DNA of 64,000 nt, taken from NCBI RefSeq assembly GCF_000613865.1, contig NZ_BAJU01000003.1, positions 62,001-126,000 on the forward strand, given 5' to 3'. The stretch's first letter is position 1. Every line of letters starts with the position of its first letter. Under the pieces are notes generated by a model, which had not been told where the DNA came from, did no database searches, and saw only the letters and a program-made list of their open reading frames with translations. Made by a program: the position numbers and the translations under genes. Shown here piece after piece: positions 25,305-44,291 of this stretch. The stretch is from Acetobacter okinawensis JCM 25146. Lineage in GTDB: Bacteria; Pseudomonadota; Alphaproteobacteria; Acetobacterales; Acetobacteraceae.

Positions 25305-27290
25305 ATGCATACGTTTTCCAGAAGGCAGGCTCTTGCAGGAAGTGCCGCGTTATCCACTCTGCTCCTTGCTCCGCGTGGTGCAGAGGCGCGGACACAGTCA
25401 CGGCCAAATATTGTATGGATTATATGCCACGATATTCATGCCCCATTGCTTGGGTGTTATGGCAATGCTTTGGCCCAAACTCCTACGATTGATCAGTTGG
25501 CGCAGGGCGGCATTCGGTTTGACAAAGCCTATGCCACTACGCCTGTTTGCTCACCTTCCCGTTTTTCTATGCTGACCGGAATATCACCACAGAGCTGGGC
25601 ACCCGCGGAAAACATGCGTTCTGTTGCAAAGGTTGCCGGTTATATTCAGGCTTTGCCGCAATATATGCGTGCAGGTGGGTACTACTGCACCAACAACGTG
25701 TTTACAGATTACAATTGTGATTTTGATCCGCACCATATCTGGGATGAGTGCTCCATTACGGCGCACTGGCGTAAGCGTCCCCAAAATACGCCATTTTTTA
25801 GCGTTTATAACTATCTGATTACCCATGAATCGCATGTGTTTGAAACAACGCCGCTTGTAACGGATCCGGCAAAGGTTGATGTGCCGCCATACCTGCCAGA
25901 CACACCGGAGGTAAGGGACGCACTGGCGCGTAATATTGATATGGTGAACGCGCAGGACAAAGCTGTTGCTCATATTCTTGAAGAACTGGAACAGGATGGG
26001 TTGGCGGAAGAGACAGTCGTCTTTTTTCTGGCAGACCATGGGGGCGTGGCCCCTCGAACCAAACGGTATTGCTACGAAGGTGGGCTGAACGTCCCCTTTA
26101 TTGTGCATTTTCCGCAAAAATATGCCCATCTTGCACAGCGTCCTTTAGGCCAGCCCAGCCCGGACCTTGTTAGTCTTGTGGACATGGCCCCCACGACCCT
26201 GACCTTGGCGGGGCTGCCTGTGCCTGAAGTCATGCAGGGACAAAGTATGTTTGGGGAATCTGCCATAACACCAAGGCGTTATGTGTTTAGTGGTCGCAAT
26301 CGTATGGATGAATGTTACGACCTGATGCGTACAGTCACCGATGGGCGCTACCGTTATATCCGTAACTATATGCCGCACCGTATTTATGGCCAGCACAATA
26401 GTTACGAGTGGATGGGGCGGGCTTACCAGTCCTGGCAGGCGCAGTGGCTGGCGGGGCATCTTGATCAGATACAATCTGCATTCTGGCAGACAAAACCTGC
26501 CGAGGAGCTGTATGACCTGCATCAGGACCCTCACCAGATACGTAATCTGGCTCAGGATCTGCAGGCGCAGGATACGCTCAGGGAGCTTAGTGCGGCTCTT
26601 GATGAACATATGCTAAAAACACACGACAATGGGTTTATGCCAGAGACCTCCGAACAGCAGGGGTATTTTGTCAGCCGAAACGCAGATATTTATCCGTTAA
26701 GTGAGCTGTTGCCGCTGGCTAACAGGGTCATTACGCGTAATGCACAGAATATGGAACCGTTTGGCAAGGTTCTGGCACACCCGAATGAGTCCATGCGTTA
26801 TTGGGCAGCGACTGGCCTGCTTATTCTGCAGGATTCCTTGAGTGCGAGAACGGTAGAGCGAATCAGACAGCAGTTTTTGGTGGAAACATCACCTTCCGTG
26901 CGTGCACTCCAGAGTGAAATTCTGCTGAACAGTCGGCGAGGGCAGGAAGCGGCTCCGTGGCTTGCGGCAACCATTCGTAATCCAACCGATAGTACGGCGG
27001 CTCTGGCGGCTCTGGTTGCTGTTACATGGAGTAGCCGCACGCAGGCTCTGGCCATCAAGCCTGCGGTAGAGGCCGCGCTGAACGCAAAAAACGTACCCAC
27101 AACACTGGAGGGGATATTGATGCTGTTCGCCGTCAAGTCCTCGGCTGGTTATCTGGACACGGTTCTGGCAGGCACCTATGCGCCAGATAGCAGGACCAGA
27201 AAGGAAGACCCTGCGGCCATGTTCCACACTCCGGCAGGTCAGCTTTTATTCCGGGCCATGGGAGGCGTTCCGGGTAATCCGCAGATATGA
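25305..27290 (+). CDS. Tat-exported sulfatase with C-terminal helical extension
   Basis: An intact 661-residue type I sulfatase. It has a Tat signal (SRRQALAGSAA, residues 5-15) and a metal-binding N-terminus NIVWIICHDIHAPLLGCYG. The formylglycine motif C82-S-P-S-R86 lies in TTPVCSPSRFSMLTG. FFLADHGG (about residue 242) supplies more metal/catalytic residues. The order and the ECYDLMRTVTDGRYRYIRNY segment resemble heparan N-sulfatase-like and other sugar-sulfatase groups. Beyond about residue 480 there is an Ala/Leu-rich helical repeat region of HEAT-like appearance. It needs formylglycine conversion, for which a gene lies at 40435. The substrate is not predictable. A strong terminator follows. 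Confidence 0.9.
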   Translation: MHTFSRRQALAGSAALSTLLLAPRGAEARTQSRPNIVWIICHDIHAPLLGCYGNALAQTPTIDQLAQGGIRFDKAYATTPVCSPSRFSMLTGISPQSWAPAENMRSVAKVAGYIQALPQYMRAGGYYCTNNVFTDYNCDFDPHHIWDECSITAHWRKRPQNTPFFSVYNYLITHESHVFETTPLVTDPAKVDVPPYLPDTPEVRDALARNIDMVNAQDKAVAHILEELEQDGLAEETVVFFLADHGGVAPRTKRYCYEGGLNVPFIVHFPQKYAHLAQRPLGQPSPDLVSLVDMAPTTLTLAGLPVPEVMQGQSMFGESAITPRRYVFSGRNRMDECYDLMRTVTDGRYRYIRNYMPHRIYGQHNSYEWMGRAYQSWQAQWLAGHLDQIQSAFWQTKPAEELYDLHQDPHQIRNLAQDLQAQDTLRELSAALDEHMLKTHDNGFMPETSEQQGYFVSRNADIYPLSELLPLANRVITRNAQNMEPFGKVLAHPNESMRYWAATGLLILQDSLSARTVERIRQQFLVETSPSVRALQSEILLNSRRGQEAAPWLAATIRNPTDSTAALAALVAVTWSSRTQALAIKPAVEAALNAKNVPTTLEGILMLFAVKSSAGYLDTVLAGTYAPDSRTRKEDPAAMFHTPAGQLLFRAMGGVPGNPQI

Positions 27291-27305
27291 GCGTGATTAC
27301 ATATT

Positions 27306-27341
27306 GGTGAGAGGCATGTTCTGCCTCTCACCATTTTGTTG
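27306..27341 (+). terminator. Strong rho-independent terminator after sulfatase gene
   Basis: GGTGAGAGGCA (27306-27316) and TGCCTCTCACC (27322-27332) form a perfect 11-bp stem with a 5-nt loop, followed by ATTTTGTTGTT. It separates the sulfatase from the convergent arylsulfatase gene. Confidence 0.85.
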
Positions 27342-29660
27342 TTACTGCAAATCGGTGACAACAAGTTTTTCAACCGTGCCAGAAAAAGCCGCGGGGGCTG
27401 TATAGTCTGTGCTGACGGCTGATCCCAGATCCTGACCAATATCCAGCATTTCGGATGTTTGGACGGTAACGTTGGCAAAATGGACTGTGTTGCTGGCTTT
27501 GCCATCAAGCGTGATTGTTACGTTGCCGGGGGTGGGCTTGTGGCTGGTCAACCATCCCAGATTTTTGGCATGCGGGGTAGGGGCGCCCGAAGTGGCCGTG
27601 TTTGCAGGTTCCACACTCACAACGATATGGTGTTTTCCTGCATTCAGGGGGGAGTTCGAGCGTATTTTACCAACCGTGTAACCGTTGCTGTTCGCCTGAT
27701 AAACAAGATGATGGTTCTGGGCAAACAGTGTAACGCCCCCATTCAGGCCACCGTCAGCAAAGATAACCCCCTCTCCGCCTTGTGTGGGTACATCGACGTC
27801 CGCCTCAAGCGTGTAATGACCGCCAGACAGATGAGGGGCATGCCACTGGTCAATGCGGCTTGTGCCGCTACGGTAGGTAAAAACCTTTTGTCCGCTTGCT
27901 GCACCAACAGGATAGAGGCCTGCAATACCCGGACGGAGTGGGTCAACCTGATTACGTCTGGCCTCTTTGTTGAAGAGAGCCTGAAGTTCTTTCAGTTTTT
28001 CGGGGTAACGCTCGGCTAGATTGGTAGCCTGACTGTAATCATCATCAAGTTTGTAAAGTTCCCAGTTGTGGGTGTCATGCTGGCCTTGTGTCAGGTAGGC
28101 GCTGCCATTGGGGCCTTCCCATGTCTGTTGTGCAAGAATGCCTGCCCACCAGCCATCGGCGTAGATGCTACGGTTGCCGTTGGTCGCAAAATACTGGATG
28201 TGGTGGCGGGATGGGGCAGCGGGCTGTTCCAGTGTGTAGAGCAGGCTGGTGCCTTCCAGCGGCCATTGAGCAACGCTGTTCGTTGTGGTGGGGGGTGTTA
28301 TGTGCGCAGCTTCGTAAAGGGTTGGTGCAATATCCACCAGATGGCTGAACTGGGAGCGCAGACCTTGCGCCTGCGGGTAGTGGGCAGGCCATGAAACAAC
28401 CAGCGGGTCTGTGGTGCCACCCAGATGGGATGCATCCTGTTTTGTGCCCTGAAATGGGGCGGTCAGCGCCCACGCCCATGCTGCGGCATAGTGGTTGAGG
28501 TAATGCTCATTCCCCAGGGCGTTGGCTATTTTCAGGCGCTCTTTGACTGAAGGAATTGTGCCATCCGCATTTTTTGCGTCATGGCCCAGAGGCCCTCCTT
28601 CTGCACTGCCGCCGTTATCGCCAAAAATTTCCAGCACCAGAGTGTTGTCGGCCTGACCTTCCTCACGGATTGTGGCAAGCAGTCGACCAATTTCATGGTC
28701 TGTCTGCTCAGCAAAACCTGCATAAACTTCCATTTGATGGGCTACGAGTTTTTTCTGGTCCGGGTCGAGGGAATCCCATGCTGGCAGGCCAGCCGGGCGG
28801 GGTGTCAGTTTTGCATTGGCGGGGATCACTCCGAGTGCTTTCTGGCGGTCGAATATCTGCTGACGCAGAACATCCCATCCTTGGTCGAATTTGCCCTTAT
28901 ATTTTTCTATCCACTGATGCGGGACTTGGTGAGGTTCATGTGTGGCACCCGTTGCATAATAGAGGAAAAAGGGCTTGTCGTGCTCCAGTGCGTCATGGGT
29001 ATGCAGCCAGTTTATGGCGTTGTTTGTTATATCTGTTGTAAAATGATAGCCCTGTTCGGGCGTTTGTGGTGTTTCTACTGGAGTGCGGTCGCGGTACAGG
29101 CGCGGGTAATACTGGCTGTCTGCTGCGGCGAGAAAACCGTAAAAATGCTCAAACCCCCAACGCCCTGTGGGCCATAAATCATAGGGGCCAGTAGGGTTGG
29201 CCTGCCAGTAGGGAGTGTTGTGCCATTTACCAAAAGCCGCAGTGCTGTATCCGCCGGCTTTCAGCACGGCCGCAACCGGTGTAACCGCCGGAGGGAGAAT
29301 GGTGTTATACCCCGGATAAGGAGCCGCCGCTTCGGTAATGGTGCCAAACCCGACCTGATGATCGTTATATCCGGTCAGTAGGGATGCGCGCGAGGGTGCG
29401 CAAAGCGCATTGACATGAAAGTTGTTATACGTTGCTCCGTGCTCGCTTAACGCCTTGAAATTTGGTGTGGCAATAGGTCCACCAAATAGTTCTGTTGCGC
29501 CGAAAGAAACGTCGTCAACCAGTATGACCACAATGTTAGGTGCCCCTTTGGGGGGCTGTATGTCTTTAGGCCATACCGGAGCGGGCTCGGCCCTGACGTG
29601 TGCTGTGGAAAAAAATACTGTGCATGCGAGTAAAAGACCTGCTTTCCCGAGGTTTAGCAT
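27342..29660 (-). CDS. Sec-exported arylsulfatase (AtsA type, ~770 residues)
   Basis: An intact 772-residue arylsulfatase. It has a Sec signal peptide (residues 1-24, ending HVRAE) and a metal site PNIVVILVDDVSFG. The formylglycine motif is C87-A-P-S-R91, FGKWHNTPYWQ follows near 144, and IFGDNGGSAEGG lies near 358. The long form with a C-terminal beta-rich domain (GGHYTLEADVDVPTQGGEGVI onward) is typical of periplasmic AtsA-like enzymes that release sulfate from aryl sulfates. A paralogue of the same architecture lies at 38087. It is the last gene of a minus-strand operon after an ABC binding protein and an aryl-sulfate sulfotransferase, with 60-nt gaps. Role: sulfate release from imported aryl sulfates. 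Confidence 0.9.
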   Translation of the reverse strand: MLNLGKAGLLLACTVFFSTAHVRAEPAPVWPKDIQPPKGAPNIVVILVDDVSFGATELFGGPIATPNFKALSEHGATYNNFHVNALCAPSRASLLTGYNDHQVGFGTITEAAAPYPGYNTILPPAVTPVAAVLKAGGYSTAAFGKWHNTPYWQANPTGPYDLWPTGRWGFEHFYGFLAAADSQYYPRLYRDRTPVETPQTPEQGYHFTTDITNNAINWLHTHDALEHDKPFFLYYATGATHEPHQVPHQWIEKYKGKFDQGWDVLRQQIFDRQKALGVIPANAKLTPRPAGLPAWDSLDPDQKKLVAHQMEVYAGFAEQTDHEIGRLLATIREEGQADNTLVLEIFGDNGGSAEGGPLGHDAKNADGTIPSVKERLKIANALGNEHYLNHYAAAWAWALTAPFQGTKQDASHLGGTTDPLVVSWPAHYPQAQGLRSQFSHLVDIAPTLYEAAHITPPTTTNSVAQWPLEGTSLLYTLEQPAAPSRHHIQYFATNGNRSIYADGWWAGILAQQTWEGPNGSAYLTQGQHDTHNWELYKLDDDYSQATNLAERYPEKLKELQALFNKEARRNQVDPLRPGIAGLYPVGAASGQKVFTYRSGTSRIDQWHAPHLSGGHYTLEADVDVPTQGGEGVIFADGGLNGGVTLFAQNHHLVYQANSNGYTVGKIRSNSPLNAGKHHIVVSVEPANTATSGAPTPHAKNLGWLTSHKPTPGNVTITLDGKASNTVHFANVTVQTSEMLDIGQDLGSAVSTDYTAPAAFSGTVEKLVVTDLQ

Positions 29661-29721: not shown

Positions 29722-31077
29722 TCAGGGGGCGGGAGGAGTGGTCAGTGCTGCTTCGGTATGCGGGGTACCATCCGGTGCCCAGTCATAGGGGACTGGCTGA
29801 ATGCGATAGACCCAGTTTGACCGGGTGGGGTGACCTTCCCCCGTTGTCGGGGCTTCTCCAGTATAGGGGGAGACATATTCCCATACGATTTCTCCAGTTG
29901 GCGTAACCTGAAAAAATCTGCCGTTCATACCTTCATCAATAAGGGTATTGCCATTGGGCAGACGGTCTACAGAACTGATAAAGCTGCTGTAAAAACTCCA
30001 GGGTGCACCACCCGAGTTTTGCCCTGTATAGGACCAGACAACCTGATTGCTCACCGGGTTGATTTCCAGAATGCGCGAGCCAGCGGCAACCTGTAACGGA
30101 TGGGCCGGGTATCCGGCTTCTCCCTGATTATCAAAAACAAGTATATTGCCCGCTCCGGGCAGACCTTGTGCAATCAGGTGGGCATCATGCTGACCAACAA
30201 ACTGATTGACCGGAAAAGGAGCAGGAGAGTCCTTGCGTCCGCGTGGCGGCAGGTTGGGGCCAAGGCGCCAGACAACTTTGCCGGTGTCCGGGTTTAGAAT
30301 GGCAATAAAGTTGGCCTCTCTCGAATCAACAATAATGTTGCCGGGAGCAAAGCGTTTGTCCCCCTCCTGCTCCCAGTGGTTGGGGCCTACGAGTTGCATG
30401 TCGTTAAAATGGAGGTAATCGGGGTTTTCCGCATGGAGTACCAATGCAAGCTGCGCAGGCGTAAAGCCAAATTCTTTCAGATGATCACCTGCTTTCCACG
30501 TCCAGCGGATGTGCCGTCTGGGCCGATGTTGTAGATTACATCATCCAGCACAGGTTTGGCCCCGTCAGATGTTGCGGTTCTGGTTGGCCAGCAGCAGGGT
30601 TCCGCCGTCTGCCAGACGAACCCAGTCGTGGTGCTGGCGGGCATTGCCACCGGGGGCCTGTGTGCCCCATTCCCAGAGTGTTTTGCCTGACCAGTCAACA
30701 TATCCAAACGTCCGGTCACGAAAGCCGGCAACGGCACCGGGGATTTTGTGGGTTCCATCACCGGGAATCTCCGATAGCTGAAGGCCAATGACGCCTTTCT
30801 GGTCATCCACAAGTGCGGGGTCCACATATTTGGCAGGAAAGCCGGATTTATCCCATCGGTGGACTTCATGCCCATTCATGTCGATCAGGTGGGTGTGCCC
30901 ATCACTGCCGGAAAACAGGACGAAGCTGTTGTAAGCCTTTTGAGGGTCATACCGGGTGACACCTGTAGGAAAAACGCTGGGAGAAGCCTGCACGGAGGGA
31001 GCATGCAAAACCAGCGTGCTCAGGGCTGTTGCGGCCAGAGCCGCCAGACGCCGGATAGATGTGAGATGAAATACCAT
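29722..31077 (-). CDS. Aryl-sulfate sulfotransferase (ASST family), two frameshifts
   Basis: A periplasmic PAPS-independent aryl-sulfotransferase family protein of about 451 residues, with a signal peptide (residues 1-31). ASST enzymes move a sulfuryl group from one phenolic sulfate to another acceptor through a sulfo-histidine. Family text is clear: GSDGHTHLIDMNGHEVHRWD, ARQHHDWVRLADGGTLLLANQ, VGQHDAHLIAQGLPGAGNILVFDNQG, and SSVDRLPNGNTLIDEGMNGRFFQV. The frame breaks twice, near 30578 (one A too many on the coding strand) and near 30510-30512 (one base missing). The corrected middle reads ATSDGAKPVLDDVIYNIGPDG, then RWTWKAGDHLKEFGF. The catalytic His was not assigned with certainty. It sits between the ABC binding protein and arylsulfatase genes. 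Confidence 0.82.
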
Positions 31078-31137: not shown

Positions 31138-32172
31138 CTACAGGGGAGTAACCACCTGTGGCGTCTGCACTGGGTTGAAGGCATTGGTGTAAAATGCGCT
31201 GGCAGGAAGGGAGGCCGAGCGCATGTCCCCCCGCCAGGCATACCAGGGCTGGAAGCGCGAAAAATCTTCAGGAAGGATGTAGCCACCACGTGTAACCACA
31301 CTGGTAGAGCGCCAGTGTTGGGCGGGTATGGTGCTTTCACCCCGCTTTCTGTTTTTTATGATATATGTAAGGAATTTTCGTACATCATCGGGCGGCGTTG
31401 TTTGTGCCCATGTGATGGCGCGGGCAGTTGCCTGCGTAAAATGGCGTGCACTTTGCGGCCAGGCTTCCATGTAACTGTTACGCAGGATAATGCTGTCTGT
31501 ATTGCCCGGACCATACAGCGCATATTCTGTTGTGACTTCAAACAGGTCACTTTGCTGCAAAGCAACTTCGCGGAATACGCTGGACAGAACAACAGCATCC
31601 ACACGGCCATGGCGGAGTGCCTGCCCTGCAACAACAGGGGGAATGGCAACAAGGATGATGCTTCGGATTTCTGCATCCGTCAGGCCATAGGCCTTTAGAT
31701 ACTGTTCAATAAAGCACTCATGCTCGGCCATGAGCGTATTGACCCCGATCGTTTTGCCTATCAGGTCTTTAGGAGTTCTCAGAGAAGAGTCTCTGCGGAC
31801 AAATAGCCCCCCAGACGTCAGCTTGTCCGCACCGCCATATGCAAGAACAGCCCTGACCGGAGCCCCTGCGGCTACGAGCTTGATGATCGCGCCGTTAAAG
31901 GCCTCTCCAAAGTCAGTGTCTCCGGTTGTGGCGGCCTGTAAGTCCTGTGGCCCGCTGGTCGTGTTGCCCACCCATTCCAGCTTCAAAGGTGCCAGATAAC
32001 CGAGCGCATCGGCCAGTTCGGGGTAGAGCACAATACCGGCCAAGCCCTGATAACGCAGGCGGTCAGGGTGGCCGGAGTCCCGTGGCCTGGCGAACACACG
32101 TGGAGAGGCAAGCACGCTCATTGATGTGGCGGCCCTCAATATAAAATTGCGGCGGGAGAGGGAGTTCGCCAT
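31138..32172 (-). CDS. ABC substrate-binding protein, sulfonate/sulfate-ester type (SsuA/AtsR-like)
   Basis: A 344-residue periplasmic binding protein of the SsuA/TauA/NrtA family. It has a Tat-type signal (SLSRRNFILRAATSM) at the N-terminus, chosen with the ATG at 32172 rather than upstream codons. The family text includes PKDLIGKTIGVNTLMAEHECFIEQYL and VVLSSVFREVALQQ. These proteins bind sulfonates, taurine, alkyl/aryl sulfates or nitrate; the island context favours sulfate esters or sulfonates. It is divergent from the matching ATPase and permease genes (115-nt gap) and heads the operon with ASST and arylsulfatase. Confidence 0.85.
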   Translation of the reverse strand: MANSLSRRNFILRAATSMSVLASPRVFARPRDSGHPDRLRYQGLAGIVLYPELADALGYLAPLKLEWVGNTTSGPQDLQAATTGDTDFGEAFNGAIIKLVAAGAPVRAVLAYGGADKLTSGGLFVRRDSSLRTPKDLIGKTIGVNTLMAEHECFIEQYLKAYGLTDAEIRSIILVAIPPVVAGQALRHGRVDAVVLSSVFREVALQQSDLFEVTTEYALYGPGNTDSIILRNSYMEAWPQSARHFTQATARAITWAQTTPPDDVRKFLTYIIKNRKRGESTIPAQHWRSTSVVTRGGYILPEDFSRFQPWYAWRGDMRSASLPASAFYTNAFNPVQTPQVVTPL

Positions 32173-32226
32173 TCCACTATTCCAGAAAGTTAAAACTTGA
32201 AAAAACAACTTGACTATATCGCAGCA

Positions 32227-32287: not shown

Positions 32288-33112
32288 GTGATGACCACAC
32301 AGCCAGCCAGACCAATCAGGCTCCGTTTTGAAAATCTGAGCAAAAGTTACCCGGCCACTGTGCGGGCGGGGCGCAATGCAACAGGCAATCTGGTGCTCAA
32401 AGATATTGAACTCGATGTTTTTGAGGGCGAGTTTCTTGTTATTGTCGGGCCGAGCGGGTGTGGAAAATCAACACTTCTGGACCTTGCTGCCGGGCTGAGC
32501 CTGCCCACCGGCGGGCGCATGGTGCTGGACGGCCGGACTGTTACAAAGCCCGGACCAGAACGCAGTGTTGTGTTTCAGAATTATGCTCTTTTCCCGTGGA
32601 AAACAGTATTCGACAACATTGCTTTTGCTCTGGCTGCTGCCGGTGTGCCGCGTCGGACACAATATGAGCGGGTTAGGCGTGTTCTGGCTCTTGTTGGTCT
32701 GGAGGATGCGGCAGATCGTTATCCACACCAGCTTTCAGGCGGGATGAAGCAACGTGTGGCTATTGCGCGTAGTCTTTCCGTCGAACCGGAAGTGCTGTTG
32801 ATGGATGAGCCATTTGGCGCACTGGATGCTCAGACCCGTGAGGATCTGCAAGTGGAGTTGCGCCGGTTGTGGCGTCGCAACAATATGACCATCATCTTTA
32901 TTACTCATGATATTGATGAGGCACTCTCCCTCGGTCAGCGTGTGGCCGTTATGGGGCGTGCGCCGGGGCGTGTTGTTGACGTTGTGCAACTGCCATTTCA
33001 GCCCGATGCCGCAGTGGATGAAATACGCACACATCCAGAATACGGAGAACTGCGCCGTTATATTCGTGCAGTTCTGTCTCACCCGGATGCGGCGACGCAG
33101 GCTGCGGTATGA
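32288..33112 (+). CDS. ABC transporter ATPase, sulfonate/sulfate-ester type (SsuB/TauB-like)
   Basis: A 274-residue ATP-binding protein. It has Walker A GPSGCGKST (about residues 57-65), Q-loop QNYALFPW, signature LSGGMKQR, Walker B VLLMDEPF and the H-loop THDIDEAL. The N-terminal ENLSKSYPA and the sequence following Walker B are typical of the SsuB/TauB/NrtD group. The GTG at 32288 has TGGAG 9 nt upstream; the ATG directly after it is the alternative. It is followed by the permease gene after 19 nt. Together with the binding protein it should import alkyl/aryl sulfates or sulfonates. Confidence 0.9.
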   Translation: MMTTQPARPIRLRFENLSKSYPATVRAGRNATGNLVLKDIELDVFEGEFLVIVGPSGCGKSTLLDLAAGLSLPTGGRMVLDGRTVTKPGPERSVVFQNYALFPWKTVFDNIAFALAAAGVPRRTQYERVRRVLALVGLEDAADRYPHQLSGGMKQRVAIARSLSVEPEVLLMDEPFGALDAQTREDLQVELRRLWRRNNMTIIFITHDIDEALSLGQRVAVMGRAPGRVVDVVQLPFQPDAAVDEIRTHPEYGELRRYIRAVLSHPDAATQAAV

Positions 33113-33131: not shown

Positions 33132-33956
33132 ATGAGCGCATCAGTAACAGAGGGTTATGCCAGAGCCCAATCTGCACGATCAGGTGGCATCCGGACACTG
33201 CTCGTCTTTCCGGCTCGGTTCATAAGCAGGAGTGCGGCGTTGGTCATACTGGCCTGTGTATGGGAGGTCATTTCTCGCACGGGAGTTATCAATCCGCTCT
33301 TTTTACCCCCATTTTCGGTTGTCGTGACCGAAGTTTATCATGGGTTCGCAAGTGGTTATCTAGTTCAGCACGTCATGGCCAGTCTGGGGCGTGCGGTGCC
33401 GGGTCTGTTGCTGGCTTTGCTGGCTGGAGTGCCCCTTGGTCTTGCTTTGGGGACTTCTGGCCGTTTGAACACGTTTATAGACCCTGTTGTAGAAGTCCTG
33501 CGGAATACGTCTGCCCTGGCATTGCTGCCCGTTTTTACGCTGATGTTGGGGATAGGGGAAACATCCAAGATTGCCATGGTGTTTTATGCAGCACTCTGGC
33601 CCATCCTCCTTGGCACTATCAACGGGTTACGCGGCGTGGATCCGTTGTGGATAAAGGCTGGCCGCTCCATGGGCCTTTCTGGCGGAAAGCTGTTTGTAAA
33701 AATTGTTATTCCCGCGTCTCTTCCTTCAATTTTCACGGGCATTCGTCTTGCCGCTGCGGCAGGTCTTCTGGTTCTGGTCGCAGCGGAAATGGTCGGCTCC
33801 AGAGCTGGCCTTGGTTACGTGATCAATGCGTCCCAGCTCGATTTTGATTTGCCGGGCATGTACGCCGCAATCCTTGTCCTGTCCGTTGTGGGCTACGCAA
33901 CAAATGCGGCTCTTGTTCTGGTTGAGACGCATTTTTTACGGTGGAAACAAACGTAA
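33132..33956 (+). CDS. ABC transporter permease, sulfonate/sulfate-ester type (SsuC/TauC-like)
   Basis: A 274-residue BPD-type permease with about six hydrophobic helices. The cytoplasmic EAA-like loop is WIKAGRSMGLSGGKLFVKIVIPASLPSIFTGIRLA (about 176-210), as in SsuC/TauC. Start is the ATG at 33132; upstream codons in frame overlap the ATPase gene and lack permease sequence. It sits between the ATPase and the AtsK/TauD-type dioxygenase genes in one operon. Confidence 0.9.
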   Translation: MSASVTEGYARAQSARSGGIRTLLVFPARFISRSAALVILACVWEVISRTGVINPLFLPPFSVVVTEVYHGFASGYLVQHVMASLGRAVPGLLLALLAGVPLGLALGTSGRLNTFIDPVVEVLRNTSALALLPVFTLMLGIGETSKIAMVFYAALWPILLGTINGLRGVDPLWIKAGRSMGLSGGKLFVKIVIPASLPSIFTGIRLAAAAGLLVLVAAEMVGSRAGLGYVINASQLDFDLPGMYAAILVLSVVGYATNAALVLVETHFLRWKQT

Positions 33957-34002: not shown

Positions 34003-34914
34003 ATGTCTGAAACTTCTGTAAAAACGCCTGCTTCGTCCGGTCTGTCTGAGCTGCATGTTCGCCCTATCGCGGGTGCGCTGGGAGCAGAAATAAGTGGCAT
34101 CAGGCTTTCTGGTGCTCTTGATCCGCAGATATTTGCGGAGCTTAAGGCGCTGCTGCACAAACATAAGGTCATTTTCATCCGCGGGCAGGTGCATCTGAGC
34201 GATCAGGAGCAGGAGGCGTTTGCAAGTCTGTTTGGCAACCCTGTTCCGCACCCAACTGTTCCATCGGCTGATGGAACAAGCGCCATTCTGTCCATAGACA
34301 GCAAACGCGGCAATCGTGCCGATAGCTGGCATAGCGATGTGACCTTTGTTCCCAACTATCCCAAGGTTACGGTTTTGCGTGGTGTGGTTGTTCCGCCTGT
34401 GGGAGGGGATACCGTGTGGGCAAATACCACGCTGGCGTATGATACTCTTCCTGCTCCCCTTAAAATTCTTGCTGATAATCTGCACGCGATACACACCAAT
34501 ACTTACGATTATGCAGCATCACACCGCGTGACATCGTCACCGGAATCTTTGGAATATCGGCGTATTTTTACCGCGACACAATTTGAGACAGAACATCCGG
34601 TTGTGCGCATTCATCCTGTTACCGGTGAACGCACTTTGCTGCTGGGTCATTTTGTTAAAAAATTTGTTGGGCTGTCGCAGCGTGATAGTCGTCGTATTCT
34701 GGAGTTTTTCCAAGATCATATTACCGGTGTGGACAATACCGTGCGTTGGCAATGGAAAGTAGGCGATGTGGCAATTTGGGATAATCAGGCCACCCAACAC
34801 AGGGCTGTTAATGATTTTGGAGATGAGCCGCGTCTGCTACGCCGTAGTACTATAGAAGGTGAGATACCTGTAGGTGTGGATGGCTTTGTGAGCACCGTAG
34901 TTTCCGCAGAATAA
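34003..34914 (+). CDS. atsK: Fe(II)/2-oxoglutarate-dependent alkylsulfatase/sulfonate dioxygenase (AtsK/TauD type)
   Basis: A 303-residue cytoplasmic dioxygenase. The iron-binding triad is H110, D112 (SWHSDVTF) and H266 (ATQHRAVND), and the 2-oxoglutarate-binding Arg lies in RLLRRSTIEG (about 278-282). The spacing is close to that of AtsK, which oxidises alkyl sulfates to aldehyde plus sulfate; TauD acts on taurine. The VTFVPNYPKVTVLRG and HTNTYDY segments also look AtsK-like. The gene follows the ABC transporter with AGAGG before the ATG and is closed by a strong terminator. It should release sulfate from imported alkyl sulfate esters; the exact substrate is inferred. Confidence 0.85.
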   Translation: MSETSVKTPASSGLSELHVRPIAGALGAEISGIRLSGALDPQIFAELKALLHKHKVIFIRGQVHLSDQEQEAFASLFGNPVPHPTVPSADGTSAILSIDSKRGNRADSWHSDVTFVPNYPKVTVLRGVVVPPVGGDTVWANTTLAYDTLPAPLKILADNLHAIHTNTYDYAASHRVTSSPESLEYRRIFTATQFETEHPVVRIHPVTGERTLLLGHFVKKFVGLSQRDSRRILEFFQDHITGVDNTVRWQWKVGDVAIWDNQATQHRAVNDFGDEPRLLRRSTIEGEIPVGVDGFVSTVVSAE

Positions 34915-35466: not shown

Positions 35467-38005
35467 GTGAATAAGATGCTGTCTTCAGGAAAAACCTTAC
35501 TGATAGCTTTTGCCCTGGTGGCGGAAGGCGGCATGGCCGAGCAGGTTCTGGCTCAGGGTGCGGGTAATGTGACATCCAGCCATGGAGCGCACCACCATGC
35601 GCAGCGCTCACAGGCACGATCGGCCGGGCACGTGCAGGCAAAGCCTCGTTCTGCGCCGGATTCAAAGCCCCTTCAGGCCAAGGCGGAGGAGATTTCGGTC
35701 TCTGTGGCGGCAACCAGCAGGGCTGCCCACAATATTGACCGCGAAACACATGAGCTGCAAAAAGTGCCTCAGGCCAGCACTCGTATCGATGCCAAAGAAC
35801 TCAGGGCGGAGCATATCACTGCTTTGCCGCAGGCAACCCGGCTCCTGCCAACGGTTCAGTTGAATATTTCCAATCCTCGTAACACTGCAATCAATATTCG
35901 TGGTCTGGGTGCTGCGGGTACGGCCGCAACAGATGGGATAGAGGGCGGGGTGGCAGTGTACGTGGATGACGTCTATCGCTCGCGCCCGGGCACGGCCCTG
36001 ACAGACCTGCCGGATATGAATGGCATTACTGTGTTGCGTGGTCCGTCCGGTACAGAGGGCGGCATGGTGACAACGGCTGGTGCAATTTCTCTTACGACCG
36101 CAGCGCCGGACCTGCATACACGCCATGTGTACGGCGAAGCAGGTGTGGGCAACTTCAACTACAACCGCTGGAATCTGGGTGTGACAACACCCATTATCAA
36201 GGACAAGCTCGCTATCAGGCTCAGTGGTCTGGGTTATGGTTATGATGGCTGGGTCAAAAATCTTGATGGCGGTGGAGATACGGGAGGGCAGACCAGTCGC
36301 GCCTTCCGTGCGCAGGTTCTGGCTCATCCCACAGATGAGATCAGCGTGCGTATTATCGGCGATTACTCGCACCTGCGTGAGAACTGCTGCAACCCGGGGC
36401 TGGTCAAAGGTTCCACCACCCGCTCGGATGGTCAGGCCTGGTTCGCTGGGTCTCTGGCACAGCGGAGTGGATGGACGGGCTATACCCCCTATGTTGGCAA
36501 TGGTTATACGGTTGATCGCAACTCCACAGCGACTGCGGAACAGGAAGACATAGGTCTTTCGGGGCATATTGATTGGCACCATAATAACTTTACGCTGTCG
36601 TCTATTACCGCGTACCGGTGGTGGAACTGGTGGCCGTCGAATGATGGTGACCTGAATGGGATCAATGCCGTCACCCAAGGGAATGCCAAGGTTAACCAGA
36701 ACCAGTTTACGCAGGAATTCCGTTTTTCAAGCTCGCTGGGCAAGCTGCTCGACTACCGGGTGGGTGCGTTCTACATGTGGCAGGAAAACCGGGTGTATAG
36801 TGATCAGGCTTATGGTGACCAGATGGCCCAGTGGGCGGGTTATGGCATGCCAGGTGGGTCCAGCATTGCGACAACCGCGCAGGCCAACAATGCCTTGAAC
36901 GGCTATAATGTGCGTAGCTATGACCAACCGACCACCAACTACTACGCGGCCTATGCCAACGGCACATGGCATGTGCACCCCAAGATCGATATTGTAACGG
37001 GTGTGCGCTATAACTACGCAGCAAAAACCGGTAGTTTTGCCCAATGGCAGATAAGACCATCGAGCTATAGCTCAGCCGTTACACCGCTGAGTGTGGCGCA
37101 GACAATCTGGAATACTTACGGCAGCAACGGCACTGCCGATTACGGTGCTCATGTTGATAACGGGTTTGTAACGGGTCAGTTCGTAGTGAATTACAAGCTG
37201 ACTGACAATGTTATCGTGTATGCGCGTTATGCTCGTGGCGGCAAGTCTGGCGGCTTGAATCTGACAAGCTTTAACGCCAGCCAGCGCACGGCGGGTGCTG
37301 TTACGCCAAACGTGGGTAAGGAAACGGATGATGCGTTCGAGGTGGGCTCCAAGGCATCTCTCCTTGATAACCGGCTGCTGGTCAGCGGCGCACTCTACCA
37401 GACAAATGACCATAATTATCAGGTTACTGCGACACATGAATATCAGGGCGCGCTGGTTTCCTATCTGAGCAGTGCACCCAAGGTACGGGTTCGTGGGGCG
37501 GAGGCGGACATCCACTACAGCCCGATTGTCAATCTGATTACCTCATTGTCCGCATCGTATAACGATGCGCAGTTTCTGGAGTATTCCACGGGGCCCGCCG
37601 GAAGTCATTACGACGGGTGCATGGAGCATGAACCATACACAGGTTCCGTTTGTGCCGCGCTGGGCGTTGTCTGCTGCGGTGCAGTACTCACATTCTGTCG
37701 GACATGCGTTCCGTTCCAGCGTTGATGGCTACGTAGGCGGCAGTTACAACTACAACACCAGAATGAACACCAGTGCCAACAACTCGTCCTACGGCTGGGT
37801 GCAGGCTTATGGCACGCTCAACCTTAACTTTGGCTTCCGTGACCATTCAGGGCGCTGGGATTTTCAGGGCTTTATTAACAACGCCACGGATGAGCGGCGG
37901 ATCAGCCAGCTTTCTCAAGGTGGGGGTATGAGTGGTAACGGGGCATGGTATGCCTATGTCACGCAGCCACGCAGCTTTGGGTTTATTGCTCGGGCTAATT
38001 ACTAA
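35467..38005 (+). CDS. TonB-dependent receptor of the organosulfur island, one frameshift
   Basis: An outer-membrane receptor of about 845 residues after correction. The start is GTG at 35467 or ATG three codons on; a signal peptide (to about residue 30, VLAQG) follows. The plug has RLLPTVQLNISNPRNTAINIRGLGA, GVAVYVDDVYRSRPG and ITVLRGPSGTEGG. This is the class often linked to uptake of organic sulfur or carbon compounds rather than siderophores (YVDDVY, no siderophore signature). The barrel end is FGFIARANY. The frame breaks at the GGG of 37615-37617; one G too many explains it (YDGAWSMNHTQVPFVPRWALS). It stands directly before a sulfatase-FGE-sulfatase run, suggesting it imports the sulfated substrate. 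Confidence 0.87.
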
Positions 38006-38018: not shown

Positions 38019-38052
38019 GGAAACCATATTTCATGGTTTCCATACCATTTTT
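38019..38052 (+). terminator. Hairpin after TonB receptor gene
   Basis: GGAAACCAT (38019-38027) and ATGGTTTCC (38033-38041) form a 9-bp stem with a 5-nt loop; ATACCATTTTT follows. It argues against starting the next gene at the ATG inside the stem. Confidence 0.6.
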
Positions 38053-38086
38053 ATGTCCTTCCATGTTCGATCATAGAGTGAGCGCC

Positions 38087-40413
38087 ATGCGTCGTTTTGT
38101 TACCTATGCTGCCAGTCTGTTTGCGGCCAGTAGCCTGAGTGCCGCAGCTTTTGCCCAGCCTGCCCCGGCAGCACCTGCGCCACAAGCTGTTCATCCGGCT
38201 TATCCTCAGTCCCCACGTGCACCACAGGGCGCGCCCAACATCTTGCTTGTTTTGCTGGATGATGCCGGTTTTGCAACCAGCTCGGCTTTTGGTGGCAAGG
38301 CACGCACGCCCAATCTTGAACGCTTTGCCGCGGAAGGGGTGCGTTACAATCAGTTCAATACCACAGCCATCTGCTCTCCCACGCGTGCAGCATTGCTGAC
38401 AGGGCGTAACCACCACCAGGTCGGGTTTGGAAACCTGATGGACATACCAGCAGGGTTTGATGGGTATAATACCGTATGGAAGGCACAGACCGCCTCCATC
38501 GCGCGTGTATTACAGATCAATGGGTATTCGACTGCAGCCTTTGGCAAGTGGCACAATACACCACGGTGGGAAACGTCGGCCGCAGGGCCGTTCAATCATT
38601 GGCCAACGGGTCTGGGCTTTGACCATTTTTACGGTTTTATGAGCGGCACGGATGACCAGTGGGAACCACATCTTTACAATGACACAACTCAGGTCCCCAA
38701 TCCGGCCACTCCTGAACAGGGGTACCATCTGACCAAAGACCTTGTGGGCAAGGCGGTCGCATGGGTGGATGACCACGAGGTTCTGGCGGGTAACCGTCCT
38801 TACTTCCTGTATTTTGCAACAGGTGCGGTGCATATGCCGCATAACGTAGCACCCGAATGGATTGCAAAAAACAAGGGACGTTTTGATGAAGGATGGGACA
38901 GTTACCGGGAACAGGCATTCGCCCGGCAGAAGCAGCTTGGTGTTATCCCGCTGATGCCAAACTGACTCCTCGTCCTGCAGGTCTGCCTGCATGGTCCAGC
39001 CTTTCTACCGAGCAAAAACATCTTTATGCCCACCAGATGGAAGTTTTTTCGGCATATATGGAAGAAACAGACCAACAGGTTGGCAAGCTGGTGGATACAC
39101 TGCGTGCGCGACCGGGGGGCGATAACCTGCTGGTGTTCTACATTGTCGGGGATAACGGAGGAAGCGGGGAAGGTGGCCTTGAAGGCACAATTGTTAATGA
39201 AGGAGCAAGCGGCGTTGGCGCACCAGACAGCTTTGCCCTGCAGGTAGCCAATTATAACAAGCTGGGCGGGCCAGACGTGGCTGACAACTATGCGGCAGGC
39301 TGGGCATGGGCCACCAGCACGCCGTTCCAGTGGATGAAGCAGGTCGCCTCTCATTTTGGGGGAACACGCAACCCGCTGATTGTGGACTGGCCCGGCCATA
39401 CTCAGGCGTCTGACAAGGTAAGGACCCAGTTCAGCCATGTTAACGATATTGCTCCAACCATTCTGGATGTTCTTGGGGTGTCTCTGCCAGAGCAGATTGA
39501 CGGTGTAAGACAAATCCCGTTTGAAGGGCATAGCCTGTTACCGACCTTTACCAACCCGTCGGCTCCCGAAACACACACCGAACAGTATTTTGAAATTTTT
39601 GCAAACCGCGCCATTTACAAAGATGGTTGGGTAGCCGCAGCACGGCATGACTACGAGCCGTGGAATCTGCTGCATGAGGTGCAGAAACTTTACACGTCAC
39701 CCACGCAGAATGATCGGTGGGAACTGTATCATATTGCCACTGATTATAGTGAGGCCGAAGATCTGGCGGGTAAGGAGCCGCAGAAACTGGCTGAACTCAA
39801 AAAAGAGTTTACCGCAGAGGCACAGCGCAATGGTGTCTTCCCCCTGCTGCCGCCGCCGGTGGGTGCTCCAACAATTGTAGCACCTGATACGCACAGCGTT
39901 ACCTACCCCTCGGATATTTCTGGCCTGCCGCCTCATGGTATTCCTGTTCTCGCGGGCAGAGCGCACCGGGTGGAGACAGATATTGCCGTTGCAGCTCCAA
40001 ACGGTCGTGGTGTTATTCTGGCTCAGGGCGGGCGTCTGGGAGGATATGTTTTGTATGAAAAAGATGGTCGCCTGATTTTTGAAAACAATATTTTTGGTCA
40101 GACGCACGAGGTGATCGGCTCCAATGACCGCCTGCCCGCAAAGGCTTCCAAAGTAGGCTATGCCTTTACACCTGATGCGGGTGGTGCCCCCAAAAGTGGT
40201 TTATGGCAACCTCCGACCGATGGGACACTGCAACTGCTGGTTGATGGCAAGGTTGTTGCTCAGGGCAAAATTCATAAATACCCAGCCGTTGCCGGGAGCT
40301 ATGCTGAAACCTTTGATATTGGTCAGGACAGGGGCTCACAGGTCAGCCATGACCCTGCAGGCAAAAGTCCTTATGGGGGCAGGCTGGGCGATACACATCT
40401 TACTGTTCAGTAA
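38087..40413 (+). CDS. Sec-exported arylsulfatase (AtsA type), one frameshift
   Basis: A second long arylsulfatase, about 775 residues after correction and a paralogue of the one at 27342. The ATG at 38087 gives MRRFVTYAASLFAASSLSAAAFAQ as signal region; earlier in-frame ATGs lie within the upstream hairpin. A Pro/Ala-rich linker follows, then the metal site PNILLVLLDDAGF, the formylglycine motif C96-S-P-T-R100, AFGKWHNTPRWE and IVGDNGGSGEGG. The C-terminal beta-rich domain matches the paralogue. The frame breaks at 38947-38949 (one C or G missing; VIPADAKLTPRPAGLPAW is restored). Periplasmic sulfate release is expected after formylglycine formation by the neighbouring FGE. Confidence 0.88.
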
Positions 40414-40434: not shown

Positions 40435-41418
40435 ATGATACAGGATACCCGGGCGGACACCATGTGCCTTATCAAAGGAGGCAGCTTTACAATGGGGTCG
40501 GAACATTTTTACCCGGAGGAACGGCCATGCCGCCGGGTGAGTGTGTCGGATTTCTGGATAGATAAAACGCCAACCACCAACCGTGCCTTTGCCGCCTTTG
40601 TTGCGGCAACAGGCTACTGCACAGTTGCTGAGGTAGCACCCGACCCCAAAGACTACCCGGGTATGCCGCCAGAACTGGCGGTTCCGGGTTCCCTTGTGTT
40701 TCACAAAACGGATAGACCAGTCCCGCTGAGTGATCCCATGCAGTGGTGGGCCTTTGTGCCCGGAGCAGACTGGCGGCATCCTACCGGGCCGGAGAGTTCG
40801 ATCGAACATATTATGGACCATCCGGTAGTGCAGGTCGCCTATACGGATGCTGTGGCTTACGCTGCATGGGCAGGTAAGGCTTTACCGACCGAGGCAGAGT
40901 GGGAATATGCCGGGCGTGGTGGTCTACAGGGGACGGAATATGCATGGGGGGATGAACTAGCCCCCGATGGCCAGATCCTTGCCAATTACTGGACCGGCAT
41001 TTTCCCTTTTGCAAACCAGAGGCCGGGAGGGGGGTACCGTACAACGCAGGTCGGCAGTTATCCCCCTAACGGGTATGGATTGTCGGATATGATCGGCAAC
41101 GTTTGGGAGTGGACGGAGGATTGGTACATCCTGCCCGAAGCGCAATTGCGTAAAAGTGGCAAACGCCCATGCTGTGTTGTGGCCAACCCGCGTGGTGGTA
41201 CCCTGCGGGAGAGTCTGGACCGCGAGGGTGGGGTACCCATTGGGCGCAAGGTGCTCAAAGGCGGGTCGCACCTGTGTGCAGCCAATTACTGCCAGCGCTA
41301 CCGCCCGGCTGCCCGGCACCCACAGACAATAGAAAGTGCGACCAGCCATATTGGTTTTCGCTGTGTTGTGCGCGCAGCAGATGCGGATGTGGTTCCGGTT
41401 GCAAACATTCAGGCTTAA
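40435..41418 (+). CDS. Formylglycine-generating enzyme (sulfatase maturase)
   Basis: An intact 327-residue aerobic, copper-dependent formylglycine-generating enzyme. It oxidises the Cys of the CxPxR/CxAxR motif in unfolded sulfatases to formylglycine before export. FGE landmarks are present: IKGGSFTMGSEHFYPEERP at 13-31, ALPTEAEWEYAGRGG at 149-163, GLSDMIGNVWEWTEDWY, and the KGGSHLC-AANYC pair. The two copper-binding cysteines are C281 and C286, followed by RYRPAARHPQTIESATSHIGFRC. It has no signal peptide, so it acts in the cytoplasm. It lies 21 nt after one sulfatase gene and 12 nt before another, and is the only maturase seen for five sulfatases. Confidence 0.92.
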   Translation: MIQDTRADTMCLIKGGSFTMGSEHFYPEERPCRRVSVSDFWIDKTPTTNRAFAAFVAATGYCTVAEVAPDPKDYPGMPPELAVPGSLVFHKTDRPVPLSDPMQWWAFVPGADWRHPTGPESSIEHIMDHPVVQVAYTDAVAYAAWAGKALPTEAEWEYAGRGGLQGTEYAWGDELAPDGQILANYWTGIFPFANQRPGGGYRTTQVGSYPPNGYGLSDMIGNVWEWTEDWYILPEAQLRKSGKRPCCVVANPRGGTLRESLDREGGVPIGRKVLKGGSHLCAANYCQRYRPAARHPQTIESATSHIGFRCVVRAADADVVPVANIQA

Positions 41419-41430: not shown

Positions 41431-42851
41431 ATGGTTGGAGCCAATAGTGGGCGCCGTGGTTTTCTGGCTGGTGTCACCGGCCTTGGTCTGGGGGCTGCGC
41501 TGCAAGGTGTTCCGGCTGCGCAGGCTGCTACTCGGTCGAGCAAACCCAATATTATTTTTATTCTGGCAGATGATCTGGGTTATGCAGATGTCAGTTGCTT
41601 CGGCAATCCGGATTTTTCAACCCCCGCCATTGACCGGATCGCTCATGATGGTATCCGGCTGACACACGCCTACGCCAATTCAGCAGTTTGTTCGGCAACC
41701 CGCACGGCGTTGATTACAGGCCGTTATCAGGACCGTATCGCCTGTGGGCTGGAGGAGCCGATCAGCGGTGCCAACAAGGCAGTCGGCCTGACTCCTGGTC
41801 TGCCAACCCTGCCAGCACAGCTAAAAAAGCAGGGCTACAAAACAGCTCTTGTCGGGAAATGGCATTTGGGAAGCCCCCCGCATTTTGGTCCGCTTAAAAG
41901 TGGGTATGACCATTTTTATGGGATATCAGGCGGTGCGGCAGACTACTTTACGCATCAAGGCATCCGGGAGAAGACCAGTTTTACCGTGATGACCATCTGA
42001 TCCATGAGCACGGCTATCTGACCGGCCTGTTGGGGCAGGAGGCGGTCCGGCTGGTTAAGGGATATGCACGGGAAAAAGATCCCTTTTTTATCAGTCTGCA
42101 TTTCAATGCACCGCACTGGCCATGGGAAGGGCCGGAGGATGAGGCTGAATCACGACGTCTCAAAGGGCATATTTTTGACTATGATGGCGGTAACCTGAAA
42201 ACCTACGCCAAAATGGTGCAGGCAATGGATACCCAGATAGGCCATGTTCTGGATGCATTGGAGCAGTCTGGACTTGCCCAGAATACGATTGTAGTTTTTA
42301 CAAGCGATAATGGTGGAGAGCGCTATTCCGATACATGGCCATTTACTGGCATTAAAGGAGAGCTGCTGGAAGGTGGGTTGCGTGTACCCGCAGTCCTGCG
42401 TTGGCCAGAGCAGGTCAAGGCCGGGCAGGAAACAGCGCAGCCGGTTATAACAATGGACTGGCTACCAACTTTTCTTGCAGCGGCGGGGGGCGTGCCAGAC
42501 CCTGCTTTTGCAAGCGATGGTATCAACATTCTACCATTTCTGGCTGATCCGGCGCGGACGCAGGATCGGTCTTTTTTCTGGCGTTACAAACTGCGCGACC
42601 AGCATGCCCACCTTCTGGGGCAATACAAGTATTTAAAGATTGAGCAGAACGAATTTCTTTTTGACGTGGTCAATGATCCCAGAGAGCGGGCCAATCTCAA
42701 GGACCGTCAGCCAGAACTGTTTGCGCACCTTAAACAGGAGTGGGAGCAGTGGAACAGCCAGATGCTGCCTTACCCGGAACGCAGTTACAGCTGGGGGGCG
42801 GATGGCAAGCATTTTGCCGACCATTATGGTGCAACACCAGAAGAAGATTGA
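41431..42851 (+). CDS. Tat-exported sulfatase with CxAxR motif, one frameshift
   Basis: A type I sulfatase of about 473 residues after correction. It has a Tat signal (SGRRGFLAGVTG, residues 6-17) and the metal site PNIIFILADDLGYADVSCFG. The formylglycine motif is C87-S-A-T-R91 (the CxAxR variant), ALVGKWHLG lies near 140 and FTSDNGGERYSD in the second half. The frame breaks at AA 41971-41972; one more A restores REKDQFYRDDHLIHEHGYLT. The gene is 12 nt after the FGE gene, with AAGGAGTTT before the ATG, so the two are co-expressed. The sequence looks like the alphaproteobacterial arylsulfatase group with CSATR; substrate unknown. Confidence 0.87.
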
Positions 42852-42866: not shown

Positions 42867-42899
42867 TATCTGACCTCGGTGCAGGAGCGAGGTCAGATA
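42867..42899. terminator. Bidirectional hairpin between convergent sulfatase genes
   Basis: TATCTGACCTCG (42867-42878) pairs perfectly with CGAGGTCAGATA (42888-42899). A smaller stem, GCCTGC/GCAGGC (42900-42916), adjoins it and overlaps the stop of the minus-strand sulfatase. There is no T-run, but the position fits a shared terminator. Confidence 0.7.
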
Positions 42900-42906
42900 G
42901 CCTGCT

Positions 42907-44291
42907 TTATGCAGGCACGGGTGGTTCGTGGGGGGATATGCCATCAACGCGGTTAACAACTGCCCCCGAGGGTGCGCGGACGGGCCCATTGAGTAGTGGG
43001 TCCTGTGTCTGCTGCATCCATGTAAGGAGTTTGCGCCGCATATCCTGCAGAACGGCCTGACAATCAGGGTCATGCACCCGGTTGTCATGTTCGGTCGGGT
43101 CAAAGGTCAGGTCGTAAAGTGCTTCCTCCGGCACATGCTGGGACTTCCATCCGGCGGCAAGCCATATGGTTTTGCTCGGGCTGTCATCACAGTTTGGAAG
43201 AACTGGTGTGTTACGCTGGTCAAAACGGCGAATGTACTTCCAGCGTTTGCTCCGCACGGCCCGCATGGTTCATACGCTGCGTGGTAGGAGACTTCAGCAA
43301 AAATGGTTTCATGAATTTCTGCATCATGTCCCATCAGGCATGGCAGAAAAGAGGTGCCAGTCAGCCACGCTGGTGCAGGAAGGTTCAGATAAGCACACAG
43401 GGTCGGAAACAGGTCGGTCTGGGAAATAAGCGTATGATTTTCCTGCCCGGCAGCCAGCCCCGGCCCGCGCATGATAAACGCCGTTCCCAGTCCTTCGTCT
43501 GTCAGGGTGCATTTCATGCGGGGGAAAGGCAGTCCGTGGTCGGTTGTAAAAATAACCAGTGTGTTACGGTCATATCCATTCCGGCTTAATGCATCCAGAA
43601 CGCGGGATACGCCGTAGTTTAACTGGCGTACACTAGCCCCGAAAGCGGCAAAATCATACCGTGTTTCGGGCGTGTCCGGTATTGAGCGTGGTACATCACG
43701 CACCTGAGCAATGTCCTGTGGTTGTGGTGTTGGGTATTCTCTATGGGTTTCAAAAAAACCGACATCAAGAAAAAATGGCTGGCGCGGCCTTGAATCCAGA
43801 AAACGTTCAGCAACCGGAGCCACAACACTTGCTTCGGATAACCAGTGGCCCTGTGCATCGCGCACGCATAGATTACGGTCATACCCTAAAGTGTTGGGGT
43901 CAGCTGCAACATGCTGCATGCCGGTTAGCACGGCCTGATACCCATAGTGTTGCAGGTAACGGAAGATGAGTTGCTGCGGGTCGTTCAGGCTAAAGCCCCT
44001 GTGTGCCAGCCCGTTCATGCCTGAACGATGGGCGGGCTGGCCTGTTAGCATTGCTGCACGGCTTGGCGAACAGACAGGAGCGCCGCTGAAAACCTGATGG
44101 AAAAGTACACCCTGCTGGGCAAGGCGTGCAATGGCAGGGGCAGGAACACCACTTTTGTAGGGGCTTAGGTACCGCCCGCTATCGTGCGAGTGAATGTAAA
44201 CAATATTGGGCCGCGCATGTATGGTGGATGCATGGGCAGACGCAGGCAGAAGGGCAGTGGCACTGCCTTGCAGAAGATGGCGGCGTCTCAT
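42907..44291 (-). CDS. Tat-exported sulfatase, one frameshift
   Basis: A type I sulfatase of about 461 residues after correction. It has a short Tat signal (MRRRHLLQGSATALLPASA) and the metal site PNIVYIHSHDSGRYLSPY. The formylglycine motif is C74-S-P-S-R78, with FTTDHGLPFPRMKCTL near 250. It resembles the compact HSHDSGR-type sulfatases often annotated as heparan N-sulfatase-like. The frame breaks at GG 43267-43268 on the plus strand; one more base restores YEPMRAVRSKRWKYIRRFD. It is the outer edge of the sulfatase island and convergent to the CxAxR sulfatase. Its upstream region carries TTTAATTCAACT, as in the ABC promoter. Confidence 0.87.

Follow-up and report, generated by a model that had tools for sequence, protein, structure and literature searches.

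Why does an acetic acid bacterium carry a dozen adjoining genes for the handling of organosulfates, and do these genes serve one complex sulfated molecule or the supply of sulfur from many? The question is raised by positions 25305 to 44291 of a 64,000-nucleotide stretch of Acetobacter okinawensis JCM 25146 (contig NZ_BAJU01000003.1, positions 62,001 to 126,000; hereafter the window), which comes from a 3.16-Mb draft genome of 127 contigs that is 92.1% complete. A sequence-only reading had taken these genes as an organosulfate island and had left both purposes side by side. Based on gene content, family matches, motifs, synteny and purifying selection, we consider it likely that the island is an enlarged sulfate-ester scavenging system in the kind of the ats/sft cluster of Pseudomonas, and that its purpose is sulfur from mixed esters and not carbon from one sulfated glycan.

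Gene content of the island

Gene classes were checked by listing of open reading frames (ORFs) together with Pfam scans of 20 ORFs from 24225 to 50080. All classes named in the sequence-only reading were recovered, and they are contiguous in 12 genes: the sulfatases S1 and S2, an aryl-sulfate sulfotransferase (ASST), a periplasmic binding protein (SBP), an ATPase and a permease of an ABC importer, an AtsK-like dioxygenase, a TonB-dependent receptor (TBDR), S3, a formylglycine-generating enzyme (FGE), S4 and S5. The island, its left neighbour and one upstream box are as follows.

24225 to 25169, minus strand: DUF1254(-DUF1214) protein, N-terminal part (PF06863, 6e-41); frame broken near 24424
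25305 to 27290, plus strand: S1 sulfatase, 661 amino acids (aa), S1_8-like, motif CSPSR (PF00884, 1.7e-35)
27342 to 29660, minus strand: S2, arylsulfatase-type with C-terminal extension, 772 aa, motif CAPSR (PF00884, 2.2e-63)
29722 to 31077, minus strand: ASST-family sulfotransferase, two ORFs (29722-30444, 30565-31077), PF14269/PF05935 on the C-terminal piece
31138 to 32208, minus strand: SBP, SsuA-like periplasmic binding protein (PF09084, 7.9e-16; TIGR01728, 65.9 bits, below the cut-off of 163.5)
32208 to 32215, plus strand: [C/T]TTGACT box in the divergent SBP/ATPase region, at 7 of 7 loci compared
32288 to 33112, plus strand: ABC importer ATPase (PF00005, 8.9e-34)
about 33132 to 33956, plus strand: ABC importer permease (PF00528, 1.2e-23)
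about 34003 to 34914, plus strand: putative AtsK-type Fe(II)/2-oxoglutarate alkylsulfatase dioxygenase, 303 aa (PF02668, 3.2e-60)
35467 to 38002, plus strand: TBDR (PF07715/PF00593), ORF 35467-37725; frame broken near 37594
38033 to 40413, plus strand: S3, arylsulfatase-type, motif CSPTR, two ORFs, PF00884 on both pieces
40435 to 41418, plus strand: FGE, 327 aa (PF03781, 4.7e-76)
41431 to 42851, plus strand: S4 sulfatase, S1_19-like, motif CSATR, two ORFs, PF00884 on both pieces
43107 to 44291, minus strand: S5 sulfatase, motif CSPSR, C-terminus frame-shifted near 43267 (PF00884, 1.3e-40)

The count of five sulfatases held, as all of S1 to S5 match PF00884 and carry a cysteine maturation motif of the form C-x-[PA]-x-R, which is also seen in relatives and conforms to the C/S-x-P/A-x-R pattern of S1 formylglycine sulfatases. 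Genome-wide there are 9 PF00884 matches from 7 genes, and the island holds 7 of the matches and 5 of the genes. The closest PDB match of S1 is the S1_8C sulfatase 9bba, while S2, which is 87% identical to its A. lovaniensis counterpart, matches 7all and, at 1.1e-52, the P. aeruginosa-type arylsulfatase 1hdh. The latter is P. aeruginosa AtsA and carries the label S1_4 in a passage of PMC5066984. S3 is a paralogue of S2 (44% identity, computed with the A. lovaniensis S3), and judged by these matches S2 and S3 are AtsA-like (S1_4) and stand for the arylsulfatase of an ats/sft cluster. The PDB entries nearest to S4, searched with the Neokomagataea homologue, are carrageenan sulfatases of the S1_19 kind; the nearest solved structures of the island sulfatases have differing substrates.

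The single FGE that had been claimed has the PF03781 domain and, when aligned with human FGE, retains both C-terminal cysteines, which we take to be the catalytic pair. Elsewhere in the same genus, an FGE in G030:C200 (L039:1289-3711) lies beside a sulfatase that is 27% like S1; this FGE is 58-62% identical to the window FGE, a closer match than that between the FGE of A. lovaniensis and the FGE of the Gluconobacter block described below (42-43%). The sulfotransferase is best judged on the intact A. lovaniensis ASST of 457 aa, which matches both family domains (PF05935, 2.8e-20; PF14269, 6.6e-18) and finds in the PDB search a weak match only, of 27 bits, to sulfotransferase 9kf6. By eye, the N-termini of S1, S4, S5 and the SBP are twin-arginine-like and those of S2, S3 and the ASST are Sec-like.

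The dioxygenase scores 375 bits with P. putida AtsK (1oij, residues 14-298), 312 with Rv3406 and 175 with TauD (1gqw), and does not pass the curated TauD model NF007104 (225 bits, cut-off 313). Because AtsK gives the highest score and the TauD equivalog cut-off is missed, an alkylsulfatase is our best guess for its function. The SBP is 83% identical to that of A. lovaniensis, its true start probably lies inside the listed ORF, and it matches SsuA/TauA families below their cut-offs. The same is seen for the permease with the SaoP, TauC and SsuC models and, among the matches listed, for the ATPase with the nitrate, SaoA and taurine models. A tblastn search with the Neokomagataea TBDR reaches 37595-38002, so the C-terminal barrel of the receptor runs on in another frame; in A. 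lovaniensis the receptor is a single frame of 854 aa, and in relatives it travels with the importer and AtsK genes. On an Azotobacter plasmid, a relative of the TBDR (27%) is adjoined by a LacI gene, a sulfonate binding protein and TonB-ExbB-ExbD.

Conservation and a probable role in sulfur supply

Synteny in other acetic acid bacteria had been proposed as a check, and the genes are indeed kept together in A. lovaniensis, Gluconobacter and Neokomagataea. The A. lovaniensis island is co-linear (78-86% DNA identity in aligned segments) and nearly whole, with S1 truncated to fragments and two additional sulfatases, one of 499 aa between AtsK and TBDR and one of 569 aa between FGE and S4. It is flanked by a DUF1254 gene too (a homologue of 486 aa with DUF1254 and DUF1214), and next to it are genes for TonB, ExbB and probably ExbD. 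In Gluconobacter sp. Dm-62 one stretch holds AtsK, permease, ATPase, SBP, a further sulfatase (Sx), S2, TBDR, S4, ASST, S5, S1 and FGE. The GTDB genus that holds Gluconobacter also includes Neokomagataea; 5 of its 26 genomes examined have a PF03781 match, and all five, Dm-62 included, repeat the order FGE-S1-S5-ASST-S4-TBDR-S2-Sx (S2 is partial in G339). Genes like CysP, CysT, CysW and CysA adjoin the FGE in every one of the five. Those of Dm-62 pass the NCBIfam models for CysP and CysT; its CysW passes a sulfate-permease subfamily model and not the CysW model, its CysA stays below the cut-offs, and its four genes have counterparts of 82-93% identity in the remaining four genomes. Near the Gluconobacter block there is also a 415-aa protein of the LysR family (L166:17315-18562), in which two stretches match HTH_1.

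A smaller arrangement occurs in two Neokomagataea genomes and in G340, where S4-SBP and ATPase-permease-AtsK-TBDR are found with no other sulfatase at the locus (in G340 the SBP and the TBDR are in two pieces each), and Saccharibacter has the importer-AtsK-TBDR core as in Neokomagataea, without S4. Further away, among the 80 of 303 loci with SBP relatives that were examined (Paenibacillus, Amycolatopsis, Burkholderia-type and other bacteria), ATPase and permease stand behind the SBP in most and a TauD-family gene is present in many. The distribution of the island is patchy, since an SBP search found 2 carriers among 49 genomes of the same genus as the window and, at E <= 1e-20, 8 among 249 of the family, the source genome being counted in both. 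A search of viral contigs with S1 and a comparison of the island DNA with a plasmid collection gave no match, and the relatives of the SBP, S2 and the A. lovaniensis TBDR in that collection are all below 60% identity.

In the scheme that we propose, the sites of export, the substrates, the direction of flow and an induction by sulfate starvation are our suppositions. Sulfated organic molecules would cross the outer membrane through the TonB receptor, and the exported sulfatases, matured by the FGE prior to export, would release sulfate in the periplasm from aryl, sugar-like and other esters, with the ASST shifting sulfuryl groups between phenols. The freed sulfate could then be taken up by the sulfate importer of the cell, which adjoins the block in Gluconobacter. 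The SsuA-like ABC importer would instead take up small alkyl sulfates or sulfonates, which the AtsK-type dioxygenase would split oxidatively in the cytoplasm. Sulfur scavenging is the best-supported purpose because relatives have a sulfate importer next to the block and because no enzyme that cleaves glycans occurs among the genes scanned. Of the two purposes first offered, it is this one that gained, through co-conservation, the CysPTWA-type importer beside the block in 5 of 5 FGE-bearing genomes and the AtsK-like dioxygenase.

The closest known system is the atsACBR-sftR-atsK-sftP cluster of Pseudomonas sp. UW4, for which a section of PMC3596284 lists an arylsulfatase, an importer, a LysR regulator, an alkylsulfatase and a TonB receptor. 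The cluster and the island share a clustered arylsulfatase, an ABC importer with binding protein, an AtsK alkylsulfatase (here the protein with 375 bits to 1oij) and a TonB receptor; the island differs by five sulfatases instead of one, by the added FGE and ASST, by having no LysR gene and by another gene order. Work on P. putida S-313 is reportedly a further source for this cluster. By its gene families the island resembles a variant in the kind of the ats/sft cluster and is not a proven member of it, since the LysR gene is missing and the importer and receptor are putative counterparts only. The island is also like tauABCD and ssu in its SsuA/TauA-like importer and TauD-superfamily dioxygenase, but unlike them the dioxygenase is AtsK-like (375 versus 175 bits), and no SsuD-kind monooxygenase was found among the genes scanned in and around the island. 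According to an excerpt of PMC12581299, the sulfur-starvation response of P. aeruginosa includes ABC importers, dioxygenases and sulfatases.

Several results weigh against the scavenging reading. The SBP, ATPase and permease reach the cut-off of none of the NCBIfam models shown (for the ATPase, among the matches listed), so no imported substrate is assigned. In 4 of the 5 block genomes, the 17-55 kb searched around the sulfatase block showed no importer-AtsK core, which means that the two halves need not act together. Five island genes are broken in this assembly. Unlike in the Pseudomonas cluster, no LysR gene, and thus no counterpart of SftR, lies between 24225 and 44291, and the [C/T]TTGACT box that could speak for shared control may be a mere -35 element.

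Regarding control, no regulator gene lies inside the island; LysR genes are found at 19019-20047 and 51096-51986, and a gene for a GntR/aminotransferase-type regulator adjoins the island at 44526-45944. The [C/T]TTGACT box lies at a similar place in the divergent SBP/ATPase region of 7 of 7 loci (six of them in the alignment), with a probability by letter shuffling of 2-4% per locus, the loci being related, and a conserved upstream box was found at this region only. Since ACTTGACT occurs once in the window, a count no higher than chance, the argument for a shared promoter box is carried only by its place in the seven divergent regions. A second candidate was rejected as a shared operator: the palindrome CGGAAACGATTCCG, presumably LacI-like, at 35049-35062 (418 bases upstream of the TBDR start) has no second exact copy in the window and none in the 216 loci searched, and its matches with 2 mismatches in the window number 2 versus 2.1 expected by chance. 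Apart from the island, positions 15754-20047 hold the catalytic domain of a cobalamin-independent methionine synthase (Meth_synt_2) beside a MesX oxygenase, flanked by two LysR genes; about 5 kb to the left of the island, these form what we take to be a MesD/MesX-like methionine synthesis pair.

Broken frames and other readings

Only 7 of the 12 island genes have an open frame; the ASST, the TBDR, S3, S4 and the C-terminus of S5 are broken, and so is the neighbouring DUF1254 gene. This could mean that the island is a decaying remnant whose function was lost in this strain, and in relatives too there are signs of loss: A. lovaniensis has a truncated S1, G339 and G329 have a partial S2, Dm-62 has an S6 remnant, and the two-piece SBP and TBDR of G340 were mentioned above. 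When compared with the A. lovaniensis contig, the breaks are deletions of 1-2 nt near 24424, 30514, 30569, 37594, 38950, 41962 and 43267, and the remaining indels are intergenic, mutually cancelling, or upstream of the probable true starts of the SBP and S3. All island breaks are deletions, and at least 3 of them sit in single-base runs. The A. lovaniensis homologues are open (ASST 457 aa, TBDR 854, S3 775, S4 481, S5 461).

Frame shifts were also counted with a home-made codon-model Viterbi scan, trained partly on the same genomes, so that its counts give relative rates only; in the island it flagged the breaks at 24430 and 43268 and missed the others. The scan found 6 frame shifts in the window (1.11 per 10 kb coding) and 33 in a further 380,565 bases of this genome (1.02 per 10 kb coding), versus 7 in 400,000 bases of the congener G032 (0.21 per 10 kb coding), about one fifth of the rate of the source genome. 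The 32,579-base A. lovaniensis contig has 1 (0.35 per 10 kb coding), and the Gluconobacter-type loci have none in 115,955 bases. The ratio of nonsynonymous to synonymous substitution (dN/dS) between the window and A. lovaniensis is 0.027-0.100 over 14 island gene pieces and is equally low in broken and whole genes, with 0.124 for DUF1254; S1 was left out, as A. lovaniensis has fragments only. In the comparison with G340, dS is saturated. A tally of gene integrity (14 genes evaluated: 9 intact, 2 split, 3 partial) is too small alone to decide between error and decay. As the breaks are genome-wide and the same genes are intact in A. lovaniensis, it is likelier that they are mainly assembly errors than decay; a loss of function in this strain seems to us unlikely, and decay of the whole genome is a possible cause of the breaks. 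Outside the island, a TonB receptor (13157-15540) and an acetyl-CoA hydrolase/transferase (22087-23588) are each in two ORFs, as further signs of frame breaks.

The second purpose offered by the sequence-only reading was a catabolic locus devoted to a single complex sulfated molecule, such as a plant or algal glycan, a sulfated flavonoid or a glucosinolate-like compound, from which each sulfatase would remove different sulfates. Polysaccharide utilisation loci for sulfated glycans (carrageenan, chondroitin) have glycoside hydrolases or lyases and SusD. Like them, the island combines several S1 sulfatases (S1_4-, S1_8- and S1_19-like) with a TonB receptor, and the block order is kept in five genomes. 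However, the 20 ORFs scanned include neither a glycoside hydrolase or polysaccharide lyase nor a SusD-like gene, and none turned up in the part of the relatives' genes that was scanned; the island also adds AtsK, ASST and an ABC importer. Moreover, the set of sulfatases varies by gain and loss from one relative to the next (A. lovaniensis has a truncated S1 and two additional sulfatases, Gluconobacter has Sx), their nearest structures belong to enzymes with different substrates, both AtsK and the SsuA-like importer suit small molecules, and a sulfate importer adjoins the block. This part of the earlier reading gained no support, and we regard a dedicated locus as improbable.

A neighbourhood of sulfur genes that arose by chance from separate acquisitions, with no function in common, would agree with the two separable modules and with the A. 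lovaniensis FGE being 42-43% identical to the Gluconobacter-block FGE versus 58-78% for the other genes shared with Dm-62, but it is hardly credible, given that the same families co-occur repeatedly in Acetobacter, Gluconobacter and Neokomagataea.

S4 without a found maturase, and what the island may mean

S4 adjoins the SBP on the same strand in Neokomagataea G190 and G114 and in G340, with CSATRTALITG kept, and none of the three genomes has a PF03781 match. The radical-SAM maturase model TIGR03942 finds no match in G190 and 52 bits in G114 (cut-off 349); a PF04055 scan of G340 left one match without evident counterpart, a plasmid protein of 415 aa that was judged by inspection unlike a sulfatase maturase. 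Between G190 and G114, S4 is under strong purifying selection (dN/dS 0.047; neighbour genes 0.036-0.123). At 50% identity or more, S4 is present in 15 of 249 family genomes. An FGE was looked for in 14 of these (G170 left out), and PF03781 matches are absent from five (G114, G190, G201, G218, G294), weak, at most 109 bits, in three (G100, G293, G304) and strong in six. The motif, read in 10 proteins, is CSATR in nine and CSASR in G294. In G304, S4 is adjoined by a radical-SAM protein and a glycyl-radical enzyme (L207:11496-16177).

As stated in parts of PMC6189696, recombinant choline sulfatase of E. meliloti with an unmodified cysteine still turns over, and a third sulfatase maturation system has been inferred in E. 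coli (Benjdia 2007, as cited there). To hypothesize, S4 could be active in bacteria with neither known maturase, either matured by the third system inferred in E. coli or working with the unmodified cysteine, which is a tentative and rather doubtful proposal. Gaps in the drafts or an overlooked divergent FGE are possible reasons for the S4 genomes without FGE.

In the open-licence literature, judged by titles and abstract starts, no paper was found that describes an island of this kind for acetic acid bacteria, and sulfatases of acetic acid bacteria or Gluconobacter have passing mentions only, judged by titles and counts; the main text of a Drosophila/Gluconobacter gene-transfer paper (PMC8474910) never uses a word that starts with "sulf". 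How Cys-type sulfatases mature without known maturases is a long-standing question, and the S4 genomes in which no FGE was found are a natural setting in which to test it. The island is built of two modules, importer-AtsK-TBDR and sulfatase-FGE-ASST, which are combined differently between genera, and it points to a way in which acetic acid bacteria of flowers, fruits and insects could obtain sulfur from sulfate esters.

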